Assembly (NCBI GenBank): GCA_003222205.1 | Contig: QHVC01000112.1 | Location: 1 to 36,369, forward strand | Length of the DNA: 36,369 bases | DNA from: Gemmatimonadota bacterium | GTDB taxonomy: Bacteria > Gemmatimonadota > Gemmatimonadetes > Gemmatimonadales > GWC2-71-9 | Direction of reading: 5' to 3' | Shown: positions 4,322 to 31,982 of the stretch, in pieces | Layout: each line of letters opens with the position of its first letter | How positions within the stretch are numbered: position 1 is the stretch's first letter | Program-made: the position numbers and the translations under genes | Notes under the pieces: model-generated | Told to the model about the DNA's origin: nothing | What the model saw: only the letters and a program-made list of their open reading frames with translations | Database searches by the model: none

Positions 4322-5289
4322 GAGGCGTCGGACAGTCGGACGGTCTGACTGTCTGACTGTAGACGCATTACGGTCCGACCGTCCGACGGTCCGACAGTCC
4401 GACGGAGGCGGTGGGAGAACTGAATCCAGACGACCGCGCCAAGAATCAGTCCCATCGCCGCGAACGTGCGGGCGCCGACGGGCTCCTTGAGGAGCAGCCA
4501 GCCGAGTAACACGGCGATCACCGGATTCACGTAGGCGTAGGTGCCGACGATGGTCGGGGAGGCATGGCGCAGCGCGTAGGCGTATGCGCTGTACCCGACG
4601 ATCGAGCCGAAGACCACGAGATACGCGATGGTGCCCGCGCCCCGAGCCGAGAGATGCCAGGCGCGCCACTCGCCCAGGACGGTGCCGAGCAGGGTGACCG
4701 CGACCCCCCCGGCGAGCATCTGCACCGCCGCTCCCATGTACGGGCTCGTCTCGGTGGGATGGCGTTTGGCGTACACCGAGCCCAGCGACCAGAACGCGCT
4801 GGCGCTCGTTAGGGCGATGGGCCCACGCAGGTCCGCGTGCAGGATGGCGCGCGGACTGGCGCCCACGAGCAGGGTCGTGCCGAGGAATCCCAGCGCCAGG
4901 CCCGTCACCACACGCCAGTTCAAGTCGCCCGAGCCGCCCGGGACGATCGCGTCGAAGAACGCCATCCACAACGCGACGGTAACGACGAAGATGCTCGCCA
5001 CGCCGGACGGCGTGTACTGCTCGGCCCACACCACAAACGCGTTGCCGCCCGCGAGGAGAAACAGCCCGACGATGACGAGCGTGCGCCAGTCGACCGCGCT
5101 TCGCGGCGCCCGGTCGCCGAACGCCAGCGCGCCGGCGAAGAGAATCACTCCGGCGATGAAGAACCGGAGTCCCGCGAACAAGAACGGCGGCAGCTCGCCG
5201 ACACCCACGCGGATGGCGAGATACGTGGATCCCCAGAAGACGCACACGAGCAGGTAGGCGACGAGCGCCTTGCCACGCAGGGCGGCCAT
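4318..5289 (-). CDS. EamA/DMT-family exporter
   Basis: 323 residues with about ten hydrophobic helices in two EamA repeats (about 8-145 and 158-290). The start MAALRGKALVAYLLVCVFWGS carries the FWGS motif typical of RhaT/YedA-like drug/metabolite transporters. The ATG at 5289 overlaps the stop of the Lrp gene by one base (TGATG), so the two are translationally coupled. Lrp/AsnC regulators commonly sit next to amino-acid exporters of this superfamily, so an amino acid or related metabolite is the likely substrate (inference). The protein should end near residue 293 (VVWIQFSHRLRR); the remaining tail of about 28 residues is low-complexity, rich in Ser, Asp, Arg and Thr, and is encoded by the octamer repeat. 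That tail is probably not part of the transporter fold. Confidence 0.9.
   Translation of the reverse strand: MAALRGKALVAYLLVCVFWGSTYLAIRVGVGELPPFLFAGLRFFIAGVILFAGALAFGDRAPRSAVDWRTLVIVGLFLLAGGNAFVVWAEQYTPSGVASIFVVTVALWMAFFDAIVPGGSGDLNWRVVTGLALGFLGTTLLVGASPRAILHADLRGPIALTSASAFWSLGSVYAKRHPTETSPYMGAAVQMLAGGVAVTLLGTVLGEWRAWHLSARGAGTIAYLVVFGSIVGYSAYAYALRHASPTIVGTYAYVNPVIAVLLGWLLLKEPVGARTFAAMGLILGAVVWIQFSHRLRRTVGPSDGRTVMRLQSDSQTVRLSDAS
4327..4405. repeat. Octamer tandem repeats in two inverted arms, coding the eamA tail
   Basis: Arm 1 (4327-4360) is built of GTCGGACN/GTCTGACN octamers and arm 2 (4371-4405) of their complement, GTCCGACN, with a 10-base loop (agacgcatta). The arms can fold into a long hairpin. 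The element is read through by eamA and encodes about its last 28 residues (from about 294). Octamers of the same GTCCGNCN pattern recur at 18033-18063. Confidence 0.85.
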
Positions 5290-18008: not shown

Positions 18009-18645
18009 AGCGGTCGTCTTAGTGGTGCTTGTGTCCGCCAGTCCGGCAGTCCGCCTGTCCGCGCAAGGCGTCTTGAGCCAGTTCTCCTACGACAGCCTCG
18101 GACTCTCAGGCGTCCAAGCCGACCTCGGCGTTCTCGGCGCGAGCCGCCTGCGCGGCACCGTGGTAGGGGGCGTGCGCCTCGATTTCGGGCGCGTCGCGCC
18201 GCGGGTGCGCGTGCTGCTCGGGCTGTCGTACTTCAAGGGGGAGTTCGACCAGCGGGCCACCGCCGAGCTCGCGCGGCGGCTCCGCGCGATCGTCAACGAC
18301 CCCGACTCCAACTTCTCCATCGACGTGGGCCGCATTCAGTGGTCTGATCTCACGGGGGACGTAGACCTCCAATACGTGCTCCCGCAGGGGCGGACGGTGA
18401 CGGCGTACCTCGGCGCGGGGTTGAGCGTTCACGTGATGAACGGCAGTGGGGCCGCCATCAACGGGACGTTCGTCGAGGACGCCCTGGATGGCGTGGCGGC
18501 GGGGCTGAACGGCACCCTCGGGTTCGAGATCGCCACCAGCCCCGCGTGGCGGTTCACGCTGGAAGCGCGCGGCGTGCTGTCCACCCAGTTGTCGACCGGC
18601 TCGCTGCGCGCCGGCCTGATGTACCGCCTCTCCGGCAAGCGATGA
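17992..18645 (+). CDS. Probable outer-membrane beta-barrel protein
   Basis: 217 residues from TTG 17992, within the end of the SpoIID gene. The signal peptide (about 1-25, RSSIRAVVLVVLVSA to RLSAQG) ends at a plausible AQ cleavage site. The mature part alternates polar and hydrophobic residues with Gly turns and ends in LRAGLMYRLSGKR, like a small eight-stranded barrel of the OmpA/OmpW type. There are no cysteines. TTG is the only start that keeps the basic n-region directly before the hydrophobic core. The signal peptide is partly encoded by an octamer repeat (18033-18063). The barrel call is from pattern, not homology. Confidence 0.7.
   Translation: MRSSIRAVVLVVLVSASPAVRLSAQGVLSQFSYDSLGLSGVQADLGVLGASRLRGTVVGGVRLDFGRVAPRVRVLLGLSYFKGEFDQRATAELARRLRAIVNDPDSNFSIDVGRIQWSDLTGDVDLQYVLPQGRTVTAYLGAGLSVHVMNGSGAAINGTFVEDALDGVAAGLNGTLGFEIATSPAWRFTLEARGVLSTQLSTGSLRAGLMYRLSGKR
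18033..18063 (+). repeat. Octamer array inside a signal-peptide coding region
   Basis: Four consecutive units GTCCGCCA, GTCCGGCA, GTCCGCCT and GTCCGCG(c). They follow the GTCCGNCN pattern of the right arm at 4371-4405. They encode the second half of the signal peptide (SASPAVRLSAQ), a region with low sequence constraint. No facing arm is seen here. Confidence 0.65.
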
Positions 18646-19649: not shown

Positions 19650-21187
19650 GCCGCGGCCGCGCGGCTGCCCTGACCGCCCTGGGCGCGCTCGCGCTCCTGG
19701 CGAGCTACGCGCCGTTCCGACTCCCGCCAATCAGCTTCGTCGCCGTCACCCCCGCTGTCCTGCTCATGCTCGACGCCATCTCCGCCGGGGACCCTCGCCG
19801 GGCGTTCCGCCGCGGCTTCTGGTACGGCGTGGCGTGCTTCGGGCTCGTGCTCTACTGGATGGTCGTGGCCCTGTGGCACTTCACGGCGTTCGCCGCGCTC
19901 GGCTACCTCGCGACCATCGCGATCCTCGGCGGGTTGACCGGCGCGTTGTTTTGGTTCGTCGTCCGCCTGCGGCTCGGGCTGCCGGCCGTGCCCCTCGCTC
20001 TCGTGTTTCCGATCGCGTGGACGTCGCTGGAGTGGATCGTCGGCCATCTGGGGGACATCCGATTCCCGTGGCTCGGCCTCGGGACGTCGCTGTCGGATGC
20101 GCCGGTCCTGGTGCAATGGGCCGACCTCGCGGGCGCGCGCGGGGTGACGTTGTGGCTCGCCTGGTGCAACGTGACGCTGGCAACCGCGTGGGGAGCGGGG
20201 AGTGGGACGCTGCGGTGGCGGCCGGTGGTCGCGGTGCTCGCGACGGTGGCGCTCGCAGGGGGGTACGGGGCGTGGCGGATGCGCACCCTCCCGACGCGGG
20301 AAGTCGGGCTCGTCGGCATGATCCAGCCGAACGAGGGGTACGACGAGAAGTGGTCGCGCCAACCGGACAGCGTCGTGGCGAAGCTGCTCGAGCTGACGCG
20401 GCGGGTGCGGGCGCAATACCGACCCGACGTCATCTTTTGGCCCGAGGCGGCGCTCCCCGGCTGGCTCGATCAGCAGCCCGCGTGGGACGATTCCATCGCG
20501 CGGCTCGCGCGGGAAAGCCACACGCCGATCCTGGTCGGCGGGTTGCATGTGGAGTGGCTGACGGGCGGCGCGTACCGCGGCTACAACGCGGCCTTCTTTT
20601 ATGACTCCACTGGCGCCCGGCGACCCTGGCCGATTTACGAGAAGCACTATCTGGTGCCCGTGGTCGAGCGCGTGCCGTTCGTCCCCGTGAGCTGGTTTCG
20701 CCGCGTGCCGGGGCTGGCGCGCTGGTCCGGCGGCTTTGCGCCCGGGCGGGATCTGCCGGTCTATGGGACGGGGATCGGCCGCTTCGGTGTGCTGATCTGC
20801 TACGAGTCGGCGTTCGAGGACCTGCCGCGCGGCTATCGCCGCGCCGGCGCCGATTTCCTGGTCAACATCACCAACGACGCCTGGTTCGGCCGCACGGCCG
20901 CGCCATACCAGCACGCCTCCCACCTCGTGCTCCGCGCCATCGAAACGCGCATGGGCGTGGCGCGCGCCGCCAACTCCGGGGTCAGCGAGCTGGTGGATCC
21001 GTTGGGGCGCGTCTCTGACGCCACGAGACTGGACCAGGAGGCGATCGTGGGCGCGCGGCTGCGCACCAGCGACGTGCGCACCCTCTACGTGCGGTTGGGG
21101 GACTGGGTGGGGACGTTGAGCCTGATCGGGACCGCCGGCTTGGCGCTCGGGCTGATCTGGCTGCGGTGGCGCCGGGAGAAATACTAA
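19646..21187 (+). CDS. lnt: Apolipoprotein N-acyltransferase
   Basis: 513 residues from GTG 19646 (GTGA overlap). About six N-terminal membrane helices (1-210) are followed by a periplasmic nitrilase-like domain and a last helix (about 490-508). The catalytic triad is intact: Glu267 in WPEAALP, Lys333 in YEKHYLVP and Cys385 in LICYESAF. It adds the third acyl chain to the N-terminal cysteine of lipoproteins, completing their maturation. Lipoproteins in the window (the Ig/haem protein and the SpoIID protein) are likely substrates. A short G-rich stretch (20189-20210, GGGGAGC and GGGGAGT) codes for a soluble loop and resembles the repeat family weakly. Confidence 0.95.
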   Translation: MSRGRAAALTALGALALLASYAPFRLPPISFVAVTPAVLLMLDAISAGDPRRAFRRGFWYGVACFGLVLYWMVVALWHFTAFAALGYLATIAILGGLTGALFWFVVRLRLGLPAVPLALVFPIAWTSLEWIVGHLGDIRFPWLGLGTSLSDAPVLVQWADLAGARGVTLWLAWCNVTLATAWGAGSGTLRWRPVVAVLATVALAGGYGAWRMRTLPTREVGLVGMIQPNEGYDEKWSRQPDSVVAKLLELTRRVRAQYRPDVIFWPEAALPGWLDQQPAWDDSIARLARESHTPILVGGLHVEWLTGGAYRGYNAAFFYDSTGARRPWPIYEKHYLVPVVERVPFVPVSWFRRVPGLARWSGGFAPGRDLPVYGTGIGRFGVLICYESAFEDLPRGYRRAGADFLVNITNDAWFGRTAAPYQHASHLVLRAIETRMGVARAANSGVSELVDPLGRVSDATRLDQEAIVGARLRTSDVRTLYVRLGDWVGTLSLIGTAGLALGLIWLRWRREKY

Positions 21188-21305
21188 TGCGGAGTGGGGA
21201 ATGCGGAATGCGGAGTTGATCGAGCGCTGGTCGTGCACGAGGGCTGGCGTTGAGGTGCGACCGCGGCGCGATCCATTCCGCATTCCGCATTCCGCAGTCC
21301 GCATT
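21186..21305. repeat. 31-bp inverted arms built of GGAATGC-type heptamers
   Basis: Between lnt and hyuA. The left arm (21186-21216) and the right arm (21275-21305) are complementary at 28 of 31 positions. Each is a run of heptamers of the AATGCGG/CCGCATT type, with small variants such as AGTGGGG on the left and AGTCCGC on the right. The spacer is about 58 bases and also has a weaker inner pairing (GATCGAGCGC with GCGCGATC). It may form a large hairpin in RNA or cruciform DNA. The lnt stop TAA touches the left arm. No T-run follows, so standard termination is not supported. Confidence 0.9.
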
Positions 21306-21319
21306 GTGGTGGGGGGACG

Positions 21320-23338
21320 GTGCGGTTAGGCGTCGACGTCGGCGGCACCTTCACCGATCTCGTCGCCCTGCACGACGACGGCCGCCTTGAGGTCCGCAAA
21401 GTCGCGAGCACGCCCGAGGATCCCTCCGTGGGATTGTTTCGCGCGGTGGACGGGTACCTGTCGCCGGTTGCTGGCGACCGGTCACCGGGAACGGGCAACG
21501 CCGTCGCAGCTCTCATCCACGGCACCACCATCGCCACCAACGCGCTGCTCGAGCGGCGGGGCGCGCGGATCGCCCTCGTCGCGACGGCCGGGTTCGAGGA
21601 TCTCCTGTGGCTGCGCCGCCAGGATCGCGCCGACCTCTACGATCTGTCACAGCACCACCCGGCGCCGTTGCTCGCGCGCGATCACGTCGTGGGCGTGCGT
21701 GCGCGCATGGGTCCGCAGGGCGTGCTCGTCGAGCTGACCGACGACGAGGTGCACCGCGTCGTCGCCGCGGTCCAGGCGTTGCGGCCCGACGCCGTGGCGA
21801 TCGCCTGCCTGTTCGCGTTCCGCTACCCGGAACACGAACGCCGACTCGCCGCGGCGCTGCGGACGGCGCTGGCCGGCGTGCCCGTCGCCGCGAGCTGTGA
21901 GGTCCTGCCGCTGTTCCGCGAGTACGAGCGCACCAGCACGACCACCGCTGAAGCGTATCTCCGGCCCAAGGTGTCGGCCTACGTGGCACGCGCCGCAGCC
22001 GACGCCGGGCGGCGCGGGATCGCGACGCTGCGCATCATGACCTCGAGCGGCGGCACGCTGCCGCCCGCCGCGGCCGCCGTGCACGCGGCCGCGCTGGCGC
22101 TCTCCGGGCCGGCCGGCGGCGTGGTGGGCGCCCGGCTCGCGGGGGAAGCGGTCGGGTGCCCTGACCTGCTCACGCTGGATATGGGTGGCACCAGCGCCGA
22201 CGCGAGCATCGTCCTCGGCGGCGCGGCGCTCTCGGAGGGAACGGGCGCGGTCGGCGGGGTCCCGCTCGCGTTGCCGGCCGTCCTCATCGAGACGGTGAGC
22301 GCGGGTGGCGGCAGCATCGCGTGGGTGGATGCCGGGGGAGCGCTCAAAGTCGGCCCGCAGAGCGCGGGCGCCGTGCCCGGTCCCGCCTGTTACCATCGGG
22401 GCGGGACCGCGGCGACCGTCACGGACGCCTGCCTCGTGCTGGGCTGGCTCGATCCGACCCAGCCGCTGGCGGACGACGTGCGGCTCGATCGCGAGCTGGC
22501 CGAGCGGTCCCTCGCTGCGCTCGGGATGTCCCTCGCTGCGCTCGGGAAGACCTCGAAACATGACGCGAGAGCCACAGCGTCCGGCATCGTCGCGGTTGCG
22601 ACGGCCGTGATGGCGCGGGCGCTGAAACGGGTGAGCGTCGCGCGCGGCGTCGACCCCCGGGGCATGACCCTGCTCCCGTTCGGCGGTGCGGGGCCGCTGT
22701 TCGGCTGCGCGCTGGCTGACGCTCTGGGCATGCAGACGATCGTCGTGCCGCCCCATCCGGGCGCGTTGAGCGCGCTGGGTCTCGCCGCCGCGGCCGAGCG
22801 CGTCGAGGCGGTCGGGTCCCTCCACCGCCGGCTGGACGACCTCGATGCCGCCGGGCTCGAGGCCGGGTTCGTCCCACTCGCCGAGCGGGCGGCCTCCGAG
22901 CTGCCGGAAGCCGTGATGCGGCGCGTCGCCGACTGCCGCTTCGTGGGGCAGGGCTATGAAGTCCCGGTGACCGTGCTCAGCAGCGAGCCGACGCTCGTCG
23001 CCCAGGTGTTCCGCGCCGCTCATCACGCCCGTTTCGGGTTCGCGGATGACGACGCGCCCGTCGAGGTGGTCAACCTGCGCGTGATCGCGGAGCGCGGCGC
23101 GCCGGCGCCGGACCTGCGGAGCGCGCCCGCCGTGCCGCCGTCTCCGCCGGGCCGCCGGGAGATCGTGCTGCGCGGCGAAGTGGTGACCGCCGAGGTGCGG
23201 TCGCTCGACGCGCTGCCGCCGGGCCTCTCGATCGCCGGGCCCGCCGTGCTCGCGGGCGGGGACGCGACGGCGCTGATCGAGCCTGGGTGGCGGGTCACGG
23301 TGCACGCGGCGGGCGCGCTGGTCGTGGAGCGGCGATGA
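21320..23338 (+). CDS. hyuA: Hydantoinase/oxoprolinase family, A subunit
   Basis: 672 residues from GTG 21320. The N-terminal hydantoinase/oxoprolinase domain begins [14 protein letters not shown], then [13 protein letters not shown]; the actin-like ATPase part has [11 protein letters not shown] and the [12 protein letters not shown] motif. The C-terminal domain covers about 490-670. Enzymes of this group use ATP to open cyclic amides or activate ketones (N-methylhydantoin, 5-oxoproline, acetone carboxylase beta). The substrate cannot be read from sequence. Two insertions stand out: residues 47-60 ([14 protein letters not shown]), coded by six heptamers, and residues 397-410 ([14 protein letters not shown]), coded by a 21-base direct repeat. 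Both fall in loop positions and keep the frame. It overlaps hyuB by four bases. Confidence 0.92.
21458..21499 (+). repeat. In-frame six-heptamer array in hyuA
   Basis: The units are CTGTCGC, CGGTTGC, TGGCGAC, CGGTCAC, CGGGAAC and GGGCAAC: 42 bases, 14 codons. It matches the prmC array (31419-31460) at 31 of 42 positions without gaps and in the same reading phase. Confidence 0.85.
22508..22547 (+). repeat. In-frame 21-base direct repeat in hyuA
   Basis: A 19-base unit, TCCCTCGCTGCGCTCGGGA, occurs at 22508-22526 and again at 22529-22547. The 21-base period keeps the frame and encodes SLAALGM then SLAALGK. Each unit is itself partly palindromic (CCC...GGG around CGCTGCG). Read on the other strand it encodes a PERSEG peptide, a repeat pattern I recall from many environmental genomes. 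Confidence 0.85.
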
Positions 23339-31078: not shown

Positions 31079-31982
31079 GCCGCGCGCTGATGCGACGATC
31101 GCCACGGCGCTGGAGGAGGCGGCGGCCGAGCTGGAGCAGGCGGGGATATTGAACGCCCGGCGGGAGGCGATGGCGATCTGGGCGGCGCTGGCCGGCACGC
31201 GCCTCGGAGACGTGTGGCTGCGGCGGGAAGACGAGGCGCCCACCGCGGTGGCGGAGCAATTCCAGAAGGCGCTGCAGCGTCGCGCGAGCGGAATCCCGTT
31301 CGCCTATGCCGTGGGCCGGACGGCCTTCCGGACCCTGGAGCTGAAGCTGGACGGGCGCGCCCTGATCCCGCGGCCTGAGACCGAAGGGCTGGTTGCGCTG
31401 GTGCTGGAATGGGCCAGGCGGTTCCCGGTTGCCGGTGACCGGTTGCCCGCACCCGGCAACGGGGTGGTGGCGGATATCGGGACGGGATGCGGATGCATTG
31501 CGTTGGCCTTGGCGGTGGAGGGAACGTTCGATCGTGTGATTGCCGTGGAGCGCTCGGGTGGGGCGGCGGCGTTGGCGCGGGAGAACGCGGAGCTCGTCGC
31601 CGCGCCGACGCCGGTCGAAGTGCGCGAGGGTGACCTACTGGCGCCCCTCACTGGGAGGGGCGAGCGCTATCGCGTGATTGTCGCGAACCCTCCGTATGTG
31701 ACCGCCGCGGAGTACGACGCGCTCGATCCGGCCGTGCGGCACTACGAGCCGCGCGAGGCGCTGGTGAGCGGGACGGATGGGCTGGACGCGACCCGACGTC
31801 TGCTGGCGGGCGCGGCACCGCTGCTCGCGCCCGGCGGTGCGCTGTTCCTGGAGATCGACGAGCGCCGGGCCGAAGCGGTGCGGGCCCTGGCGCAAGGGCA
31901 CGGCTGGCGCCGCATCGAGATCCACCAGGACTTGTTCGGCCGGCCGCGCTACGCGGTGGCGTTCCCCCAGGAGGGCGCGTGA
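31071..31982 (+). CDS. prmC: Release-factor glutamine methyltransferase
   Basis: 303 residues from GTG 31071, with a GGGGGAAAAGGA ribosome site inside the end of prfA. The N-terminal helical domain is followed by a methyltransferase domain with [16 protein letters not shown] for SAM and the catalytic NPPYVTAAE. It methylates the GGQ glutamine of release factors. Residues 117-130 ([14 protein letters not shown]) are an insert between the PRPETE helix and the SAM-binding strand; this stretch is coded by a six-heptamer array nearly identical in plan to that in hyuA. The overall length is somewhat long for the family because of it. It overlaps the YlbF-like gene by four bases. Confidence 0.95.
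31419..31460 (+). repeat. In-frame six-heptamer array in prmC
   Basis: The units are CGGTTCC, CGGTTGC, CGGTGAC, CGGTTGC, CCGCACC and CGGCAAC: 42 bases, 14 codons. GTTGCC (31443-31448) can pair with GGCAAC (31455-31460), so the array also carries a small inverted end. Confidence 0.85.

Follow-up and report, generated by a model that had tools for sequence, protein, structure and literature searches.

The hydantoinase/oxoprolinase A-type subunit gene hyuA (21320-23338, forward strand, 672 aa) of a Gemmatimonadota bacterium carries the same short DNA sequence twice within its reading frame. Where does this repeat come from, and what has it done to the protein? We addressed these questions within the window, that is the whole stretch of 36,369 nucleotides that was analysed, in the 2.97 Mb genome from which it derives (217 contigs) and in genomes of the same phylum.

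A 19-base unit is duplicated in frame in hyuA

The product of hyuA matches the Pfam families Hydant_A_N (E 6e-42) and Hydantoinase_A (E 6e-76), both above the cut-off, and the best sequence match in the PDB is the N-methylhydantoinase 7hk5. Within the gene the 19-mer TCCCTCGCTGCGCTCGGGA is found exactly at 22508-22526 and again at 22529-22547, both times in frame. With the two bases that follow each copy, the units form a 21-bp tandem duplication, 22508-22528 and 22529-22549, with a single difference between T22527 and A22548. The repeat is the top of the 51 TRF rows for the window (22507-22547, period 21, 100% matches, score 82), so that from TRF and the sequence together the duplication occupies 22507-22549. 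On the coding strand the in-frame reading is 14 residues, SLAALG(M) from the first copy and SLAALG(K) from the second.

An earlier note, made from the letters of this DNA, had described a 19-base unit that occurs twice at 21-base spacing without breaking the frame and that has partial dyad symmetry. The exact matches and TRF bear out the spacing and the frame, and the symmetry is also real, the 19-mer comprising 4 bp, a TC/TC mismatch, 2 bp and a 3-nt loop. PERSEG, which the note read on the other strand, is not a reading of hyuA; one frame of the strand opposite hyuA reads through the units as 15 residues, and the PERSEG frame is used by a copy in an NYN-domain protein. The note could not see the genome-wide hairpin family described below.

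In shuffled windows 0.11 matches to TCCCTCGCTGCGCTCGGGA with three or fewer mismatches would be expected, and at least two matches were seen in 0 of 100 shuffles. It is also the only perfect 19-mer in the window repeated at a distance of 19-60, and no such repeat was present in any of 10 triplet-shuffled windows.

The unit belongs to a dispersed hairpin family

Judged by its sequence, the hyuA unit is a member of a hairpin family dispersed in this genome, in which 27 places lie within 3 mismatches of the unit compared with 4 for a backward control. CCCTCGCTNCGCTCGGG is found exactly in 19 copies as opposed to 0 for its backward control, these own-genome copies having initially been found by their likeness to the hyuA unit. 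One further copy, in a MalK-like gene on contig C197, is identical to the hyuA unit over 19/19 bases. Among 395 genomes of the phylum the 17-mer of the element was present in 54 and absent in 341, the backward control giving 9 matches across all 395. The highest copy numbers were 152 (G080), 80 (G391), 70 (G245), 61 (G241) and 51 (G166).

Structure of the element

In the orientation of the element, which in hyuA is TCCCGAGCGCAGCGAGGGA on the reverse strand, the sequence is a hairpin, NCCC-GA-GC-GNA-GC-GA-GGGN', and many copies in related genomes read GTCAT-CCC-GA-GC-GNA-GC-GA-GGG-ATCT. When folded it has a 3-base loop on 2 bp, then a 2x2 G.A/A.G mismatch and an outer stem of 5 bp. In single strands, GNA loops and tandem G.A pairs are known stable features. 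The hyuA unit as DNA is not unusually stable, with z of -0.1 to -0.7 for a single unit and -1.3 for both, and as RNA z is -1.1 to -1.7. A terminator or RNA-level role of the hyuA unit was set aside, given its position in the middle of the gene and the unremarkable fold.

The two bases of the outer stem pair, which the search left free, are complementary in 53 of the 57 distinct copies (TA 34, CG 17, GC 2) and not in the remainder (CA 3, CC 1), in a set that excludes loci L001-L020, L022, L048-L077 and L106. In the genome of the window they are complementary in 19/19 copies (CG 14, TA 4, GC 1). When the pair beside the G.A mismatches was searched with a pattern allowing C or T with G or A, it was T-A in 103 of 105 places and C-G in none, 104 of the 105 falling in two Thermomicrobiales genomes (76 copies in L166 and 28 in L153). 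The pattern was matched in 3 of the 40 genomes asked, with 0 for the controls, and 10/10 fetched copies of the TCATCCT form have a [CT]GTC tag, i.e. CGTC or TGTC.

For 48 chosen copies, made up of 38 of the 57 together with the 10 of the TCATCCT form, the covariation score was 0.239, compared with 0.124 when shuffled and at most 0.117 when slid. The 19 copies left out of this set include both hyuA copies and all 4 with a non-complementary outer pair, so 53/57 is the fair figure for the complementarity of that pair. In the chosen set pairs 5-23 and 8-20 vary at both positions and are paired in every cell; four pairs are invariant because the search patterns fixed their bases. Two of the five covariation measures were no higher than in the shuffles (3 vs 2.8 for pairs with changes at both positions, 5 vs 5.8 for further pair types), and of 41 distinct rows only 16 form the A-T pair 4-24, which precedes the outer pair. 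The picture is of a hairpin repeat that is abundant in some Gemmatimonadota and has a covarying version in Thermomicrobiales.

A tag stands beside many copies. At the tag place 19 of the 38 copies from related genomes have TGTC (11), CCTC (5) or CGTC (3), and the 19 copies in the genome of the window include GCCT 9 times, GGTC 6 times and TGTC once. The 3' side of the element in related genomes is mostly ATCT-like or ACCT-like. Neither hyuA copy has an intact tag: copy 1 abuts copy 2, and copy 2 is flanked on the right by AGACC (22548-22552; the tag would lie on the reverse strand) instead of TGACC, the complement of the GGTCA found on the element strand beside five copies in the same genome. 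With 4/5 bases shared, this flank is possibly a decayed tag, and it weakly suggests that a whole tagged element formerly stood at this site.

Copies inside other genes

Eight of the 19 copies lie in six Pfam-supported genes: hyuA (two), a MalK-like ABC ATPase, an AhpC/TSA redoxin (two, at its end), gpmI, a chemotaxis-type protein (at its end) and the NYN-domain protein. Two further copies are in uncertain genes, one a 371-aa reading frame with no Pfam match and the other near the start of an M8-peptidase-like frame; the training set of the codon score comprised two genes. The copies are read in several different frames, with PERSEG in the NYN protein, and the unit sequence is also present in places with no credible gene. 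The copy in gpmI (contig C107) reads EPAPSAARGQ and adds 7-8 aa relative to the PDB homologues 5vpu and 5kgn in one alignment gap, and the MalK-like copy sits in a loop of variable length. The redoxin copy stands at the 1st most element-like of 148 positions in 13 homologues and the MalK-like copy at the 54th of 360 positions in 11, though some of these homologues are perhaps paralogues. Several enzyme genes of a single genome thus carry a hairpin repeat within their reading frames.

Origin of the tandem pair in hyuA

The earlier note had proposed comparing the number of units in relatives. That number varies, since all 38 distinct hyuA orthologues lack the unit and 99 of the 99 orthologue loci scanned lack the element core. 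A protein-level repeat conserved in HyuA was rejected on the same absence. The linker in question is 24 aa in 29 of the 38 orthologues, 22 in five, 25 in two, 26 in one and 28 in one, and in the hyuA of the window it is 31 aa, or 24 + 7. With these linker lengths and no core in the orthologues, the simplest net gain is a single 21-bp unit. In the alignment this addition (7 aa) falls on copy 2, whose site has no native look-alike, the mean identity of the orthologues to the unit being 5.1/19 (rank 514 of 659 positions). The site of copy 1 does have one, with a mean identity of 9.8/19, a best of 14/19 and a rank of 6/659. Copy 1 would either have replaced native codons or have arisen from them; as the length before duplication would have been that of the ordinary 24-aa linker, insertion of copy 1 cannot be inferred from length. 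The closest relative found has 68% protein identity, in a search that may omit very near genomes, and the state before duplication is therefore unseen.

The repeat is probably explained by the dispersed REP-like hairpin in hyuA, followed by a 21-bp duplication that gave the tandem pair. One copy of the element, probably tagged with GGTCA, would have occupied codons of a helix in hyuA, where it was read as SLAALGMT. Copy 2 would have followed by tandem duplication of 21 bp, for which slippage of replication at the hairpin is the simplest mechanism, and the A at 22548 would have replaced the T on the tag side, changing M to K. We infer the slippage, the order of these events and the ancestral tag.

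It is also conceivable, if unlikely, that the hairpin enters genes with no transposase, through gene conversion or template switching at helix codons with a prior likeness to it (A/S-L-x-x-L-G), the length of the gene being unchanged. The ranks of the hyuA copy 1 site and of the redoxin site, sixth and first, would fit such conversion, but that of the MalK-like gene is only 54th and gpmI instead gained length. If true, conversion would offer one explanation for the movement of CGTC-type REPs, which lack a transposase, a point that the 2013 description leaves unanswered in its available text (PMC3733652).

Slippage might instead have acted on native LAALG helix codons that had no connection with the element, the match to the dispersed hairpin being a coincidence. 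That copy 1 is at native length on native look-alike codons would suit such an origin, which we nevertheless regard as distinctly unlikely, because the full 19-mer with its complementary ends matches the family exactly whilst the backward controls give 0 in the same genome and 9 in the 395. The identical 19-mer recurs, moreover, in the MalK-like gene on C197, and the units use the alanine codon GCT, found in 9 of 200 Ala codons in hyuA and hyuB, two of the 9 being in the units.

Inverted pairs and the Y1 transposase

Elsewhere in the phylum, inverted pairs whose starts are separated by 38-88 nt were seen among the listed places in G080, G241, G245, G119 and G133, and in the pairs on contig C21 of G080 and contig C10 of G241 the tags face outside. 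In the genome of the window none of the 19 copies was seen to form such a pair. At the G080 locus no exact core is present in the genus g13 sisters G012, G223, G096, G119 and G245, where the gap is 66, 42, 60, 152 and 129 bp respectively compared with 241-289 bp in G080; the gap in G245 holds a decayed-looking core, and G241 has one core there (G391 and G349 do not span the locus). At the G241 locus no core is present in the six spanning sisters (G223, G080, G012, G245, G096 and G349; G391 and G119 do not span it). Copies of the element therefore differ between sister species at both of these intergenic places.

The inverted pairs with outside tags resemble REPINs, and the genome of the window has three matches to PF01797, the Y1 transposase profile. 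A RAYT-type Y1 transposase could accordingly be imagined to move the element, with a tandem or paired element inserted in hyuA and a compensating deletion. The distribution of the profile makes this very unlikely. Of 16 genomes with at least 14 copies of the element 5 have PF01797, as do 11 of 16 genomes that lack the element, and the profile was not found in six high-copy genomes of the one genus g13 (G080, G391, G245, G241, G223 and G119, 152 to 15 copies). In the genome of the window the element core is absent from 6-kb regions surrounding the Y1 genes of C215 and C206, and beside the Y1 gene on C72 there is just one degenerate copy, 1.3 kb away. As PF01797 is commoner in the copy-free genomes, a Y1 transposase does not readily suggest itself as the agent of spread, and spread by RAYTs, judged by this profile only, is unsupported. 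A genus with 152 to 1 copies, in whose richest species no Y1 transposase was detected, would be a ready test bed for how the element spreads.

Effect on the HyuA protein

The structure model of HyuA has a pLDDT of 91.5, and VIA-align agrees with its fold. In the model, helix 391-407 (17 residues, codons at 22490-22540 on the forward strand) is followed by a loop and then by helix 416-438, while the model of the orthologue at locus L132 has helices of 9 residues (378-386) and 4 residues (389-392) ahead of helix 396-418. Between the starts of the first and the last of these helices there are 25 residues in HyuA and 18 in the orthologue, which places the 7 extra residues in this segment. The model accommodates them by lengthening a continuous helix. 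An addition of seven residues amounts to about two helix turns, which may explain why it is tolerated. On the preferred reading, that of the dispersed hairpin and its duplication, the pair would survive because 21 bp is seven codons and about two turns, preserving both the frame and the next helix. The consequence for hyuA itself appears modest, 7 aa within a predicted helix.

The longer continuous helix is predicted with good confidence, and it might be argued that the repeat was selected at the level of the protein, improving or altering HyuA. We consider this highly improbable, given that the linker varies from 22 to 28 aa among the orthologues, that their nearest invariant columns, D369 and A434, both lie outside it and that the unit sequence also occurs where there is no credible gene. 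An assembly error that created copy 2 is scarcely credible even for a draft in 217 contigs, since the 21-bp units differ at one base (T22527/A22548) and 42 bp is shorter than the usual sequencing read.

Comparison with known repeats

The closest likeness is to the CGTC-tagged REPs, in which, according to the accessible part of their description, inverted (HH) dimers predominate and no transposase is associated (Di Nocera, De Gregorio, Rocco 2013, PMC3733652). In partial likeness to these, some copies in related genomes have a CGTC, TGTC or CCTC tag beside a palindrome starting with AT, and inverted dimers with a spacer occur among the listed places of some of those genomes. Copy numbers are likewise patchy, copies lie in genes and, judged here by PF01797 only, a link to a Y1 transposase is not evident. 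The total length from AT to AT is 21, which equals 8+5+8. The stem, however, is 5 bp, a tandem G.A/A.G and 2 bp with a GNA loop, compared with 8-9 bp and a loop of 4-5 nt in the CGTC REPs, and the 3' side is ATCT-like where their tail is mostly CCA (PMC3733652). The copies in the genome of the window diverge further, with GCCT in 9/19 and GGTC in 6/19 at the tag place and a C-G outer pair in 14/19. Compared by description, with what the cited text gives, the element seems to work like a CGTC-tagged REP but is a variant outside the four published families, because it has neither a stem of 8-9 bp nor a CCA tail and in its own genome mostly lacks the tag.

REPINs and GTAG REPs with RAYTs share the inverted pair of short hairpins and the presence or absence between sister species (PMC3116915, PMC2817692, in the parts available). 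Unlike them, the element has no GTAG among the 7 tag kinds of the 19 own-genome copies or the 12 commonest of the 38 others, and no positive link to PF01797. The Rickettsia repeats RPE-4 and RPE-6 are also palindromic and inside genes, but are alphaproteobacterial, whereas here a 19-24 bp unit is duplicated at 21 bp in one gene (compared by description, as summarised in PMC3733652). Palindromic amphipathic repeat coding sequences are likewise in frame in proteins; as far as the consulted portion of that account goes they are intragenic tandem repeats of proteins, as opposed to a single duplication of an element that is also found outside genes (PMC2996958). The literature covered on REPs of Gemmatimonadota and Chloroflexi and on intragenic palindromic repeats, in which subscription papers mostly fell outside the scope, held no description of this family in Gemmatimonadota. 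The listed matches to the core words in full-text literature look unrelated by title, and the one in Mycobacterium rep-PCR is a primer in the text seen (PMC10117815).

Other short arrays and a copy among tRNA genes

The earlier note's count of two repeat families in hyuA was fair, as the loop near aa 45-60 (21459-21499) holds a different, heptamer-type array. This loop varies in length among the orthologues, and those at L004, L125 and L130 have different short inverted arrays in different genomes; in L125 it contains GGGACGAGGGACGGGGGA with CCCGTCCCTCGTCCCC downstream, in frame. An array similar to that inside hyuA, of CGGTTGC/CGGTGAC heptamers, is found at 31413-31456. Inverted heptamer arrays (AATGCGG/CATTCCG) lie at 21186-21305, directly after the gene upstream of hyuA, and like arrays are found about 170 bp upstream of the hyuA orthologue of locus L127 (65% identical). 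The window also has octamer arrays at 4327-4405 and 18033-18062, GTCGGACT/GTCCGACA and GTCCGCCA, and octamers resembling these border REP-like copies at other places in the genome (L033, L034, L041). Finally, a one-mismatch copy of the unit on contig C78 (7849-7867; L024:1501-1519) lies within a tRNA cluster, between the genes for tRNA-Gly and tRNA-Thr and 3 bases ahead of the latter.
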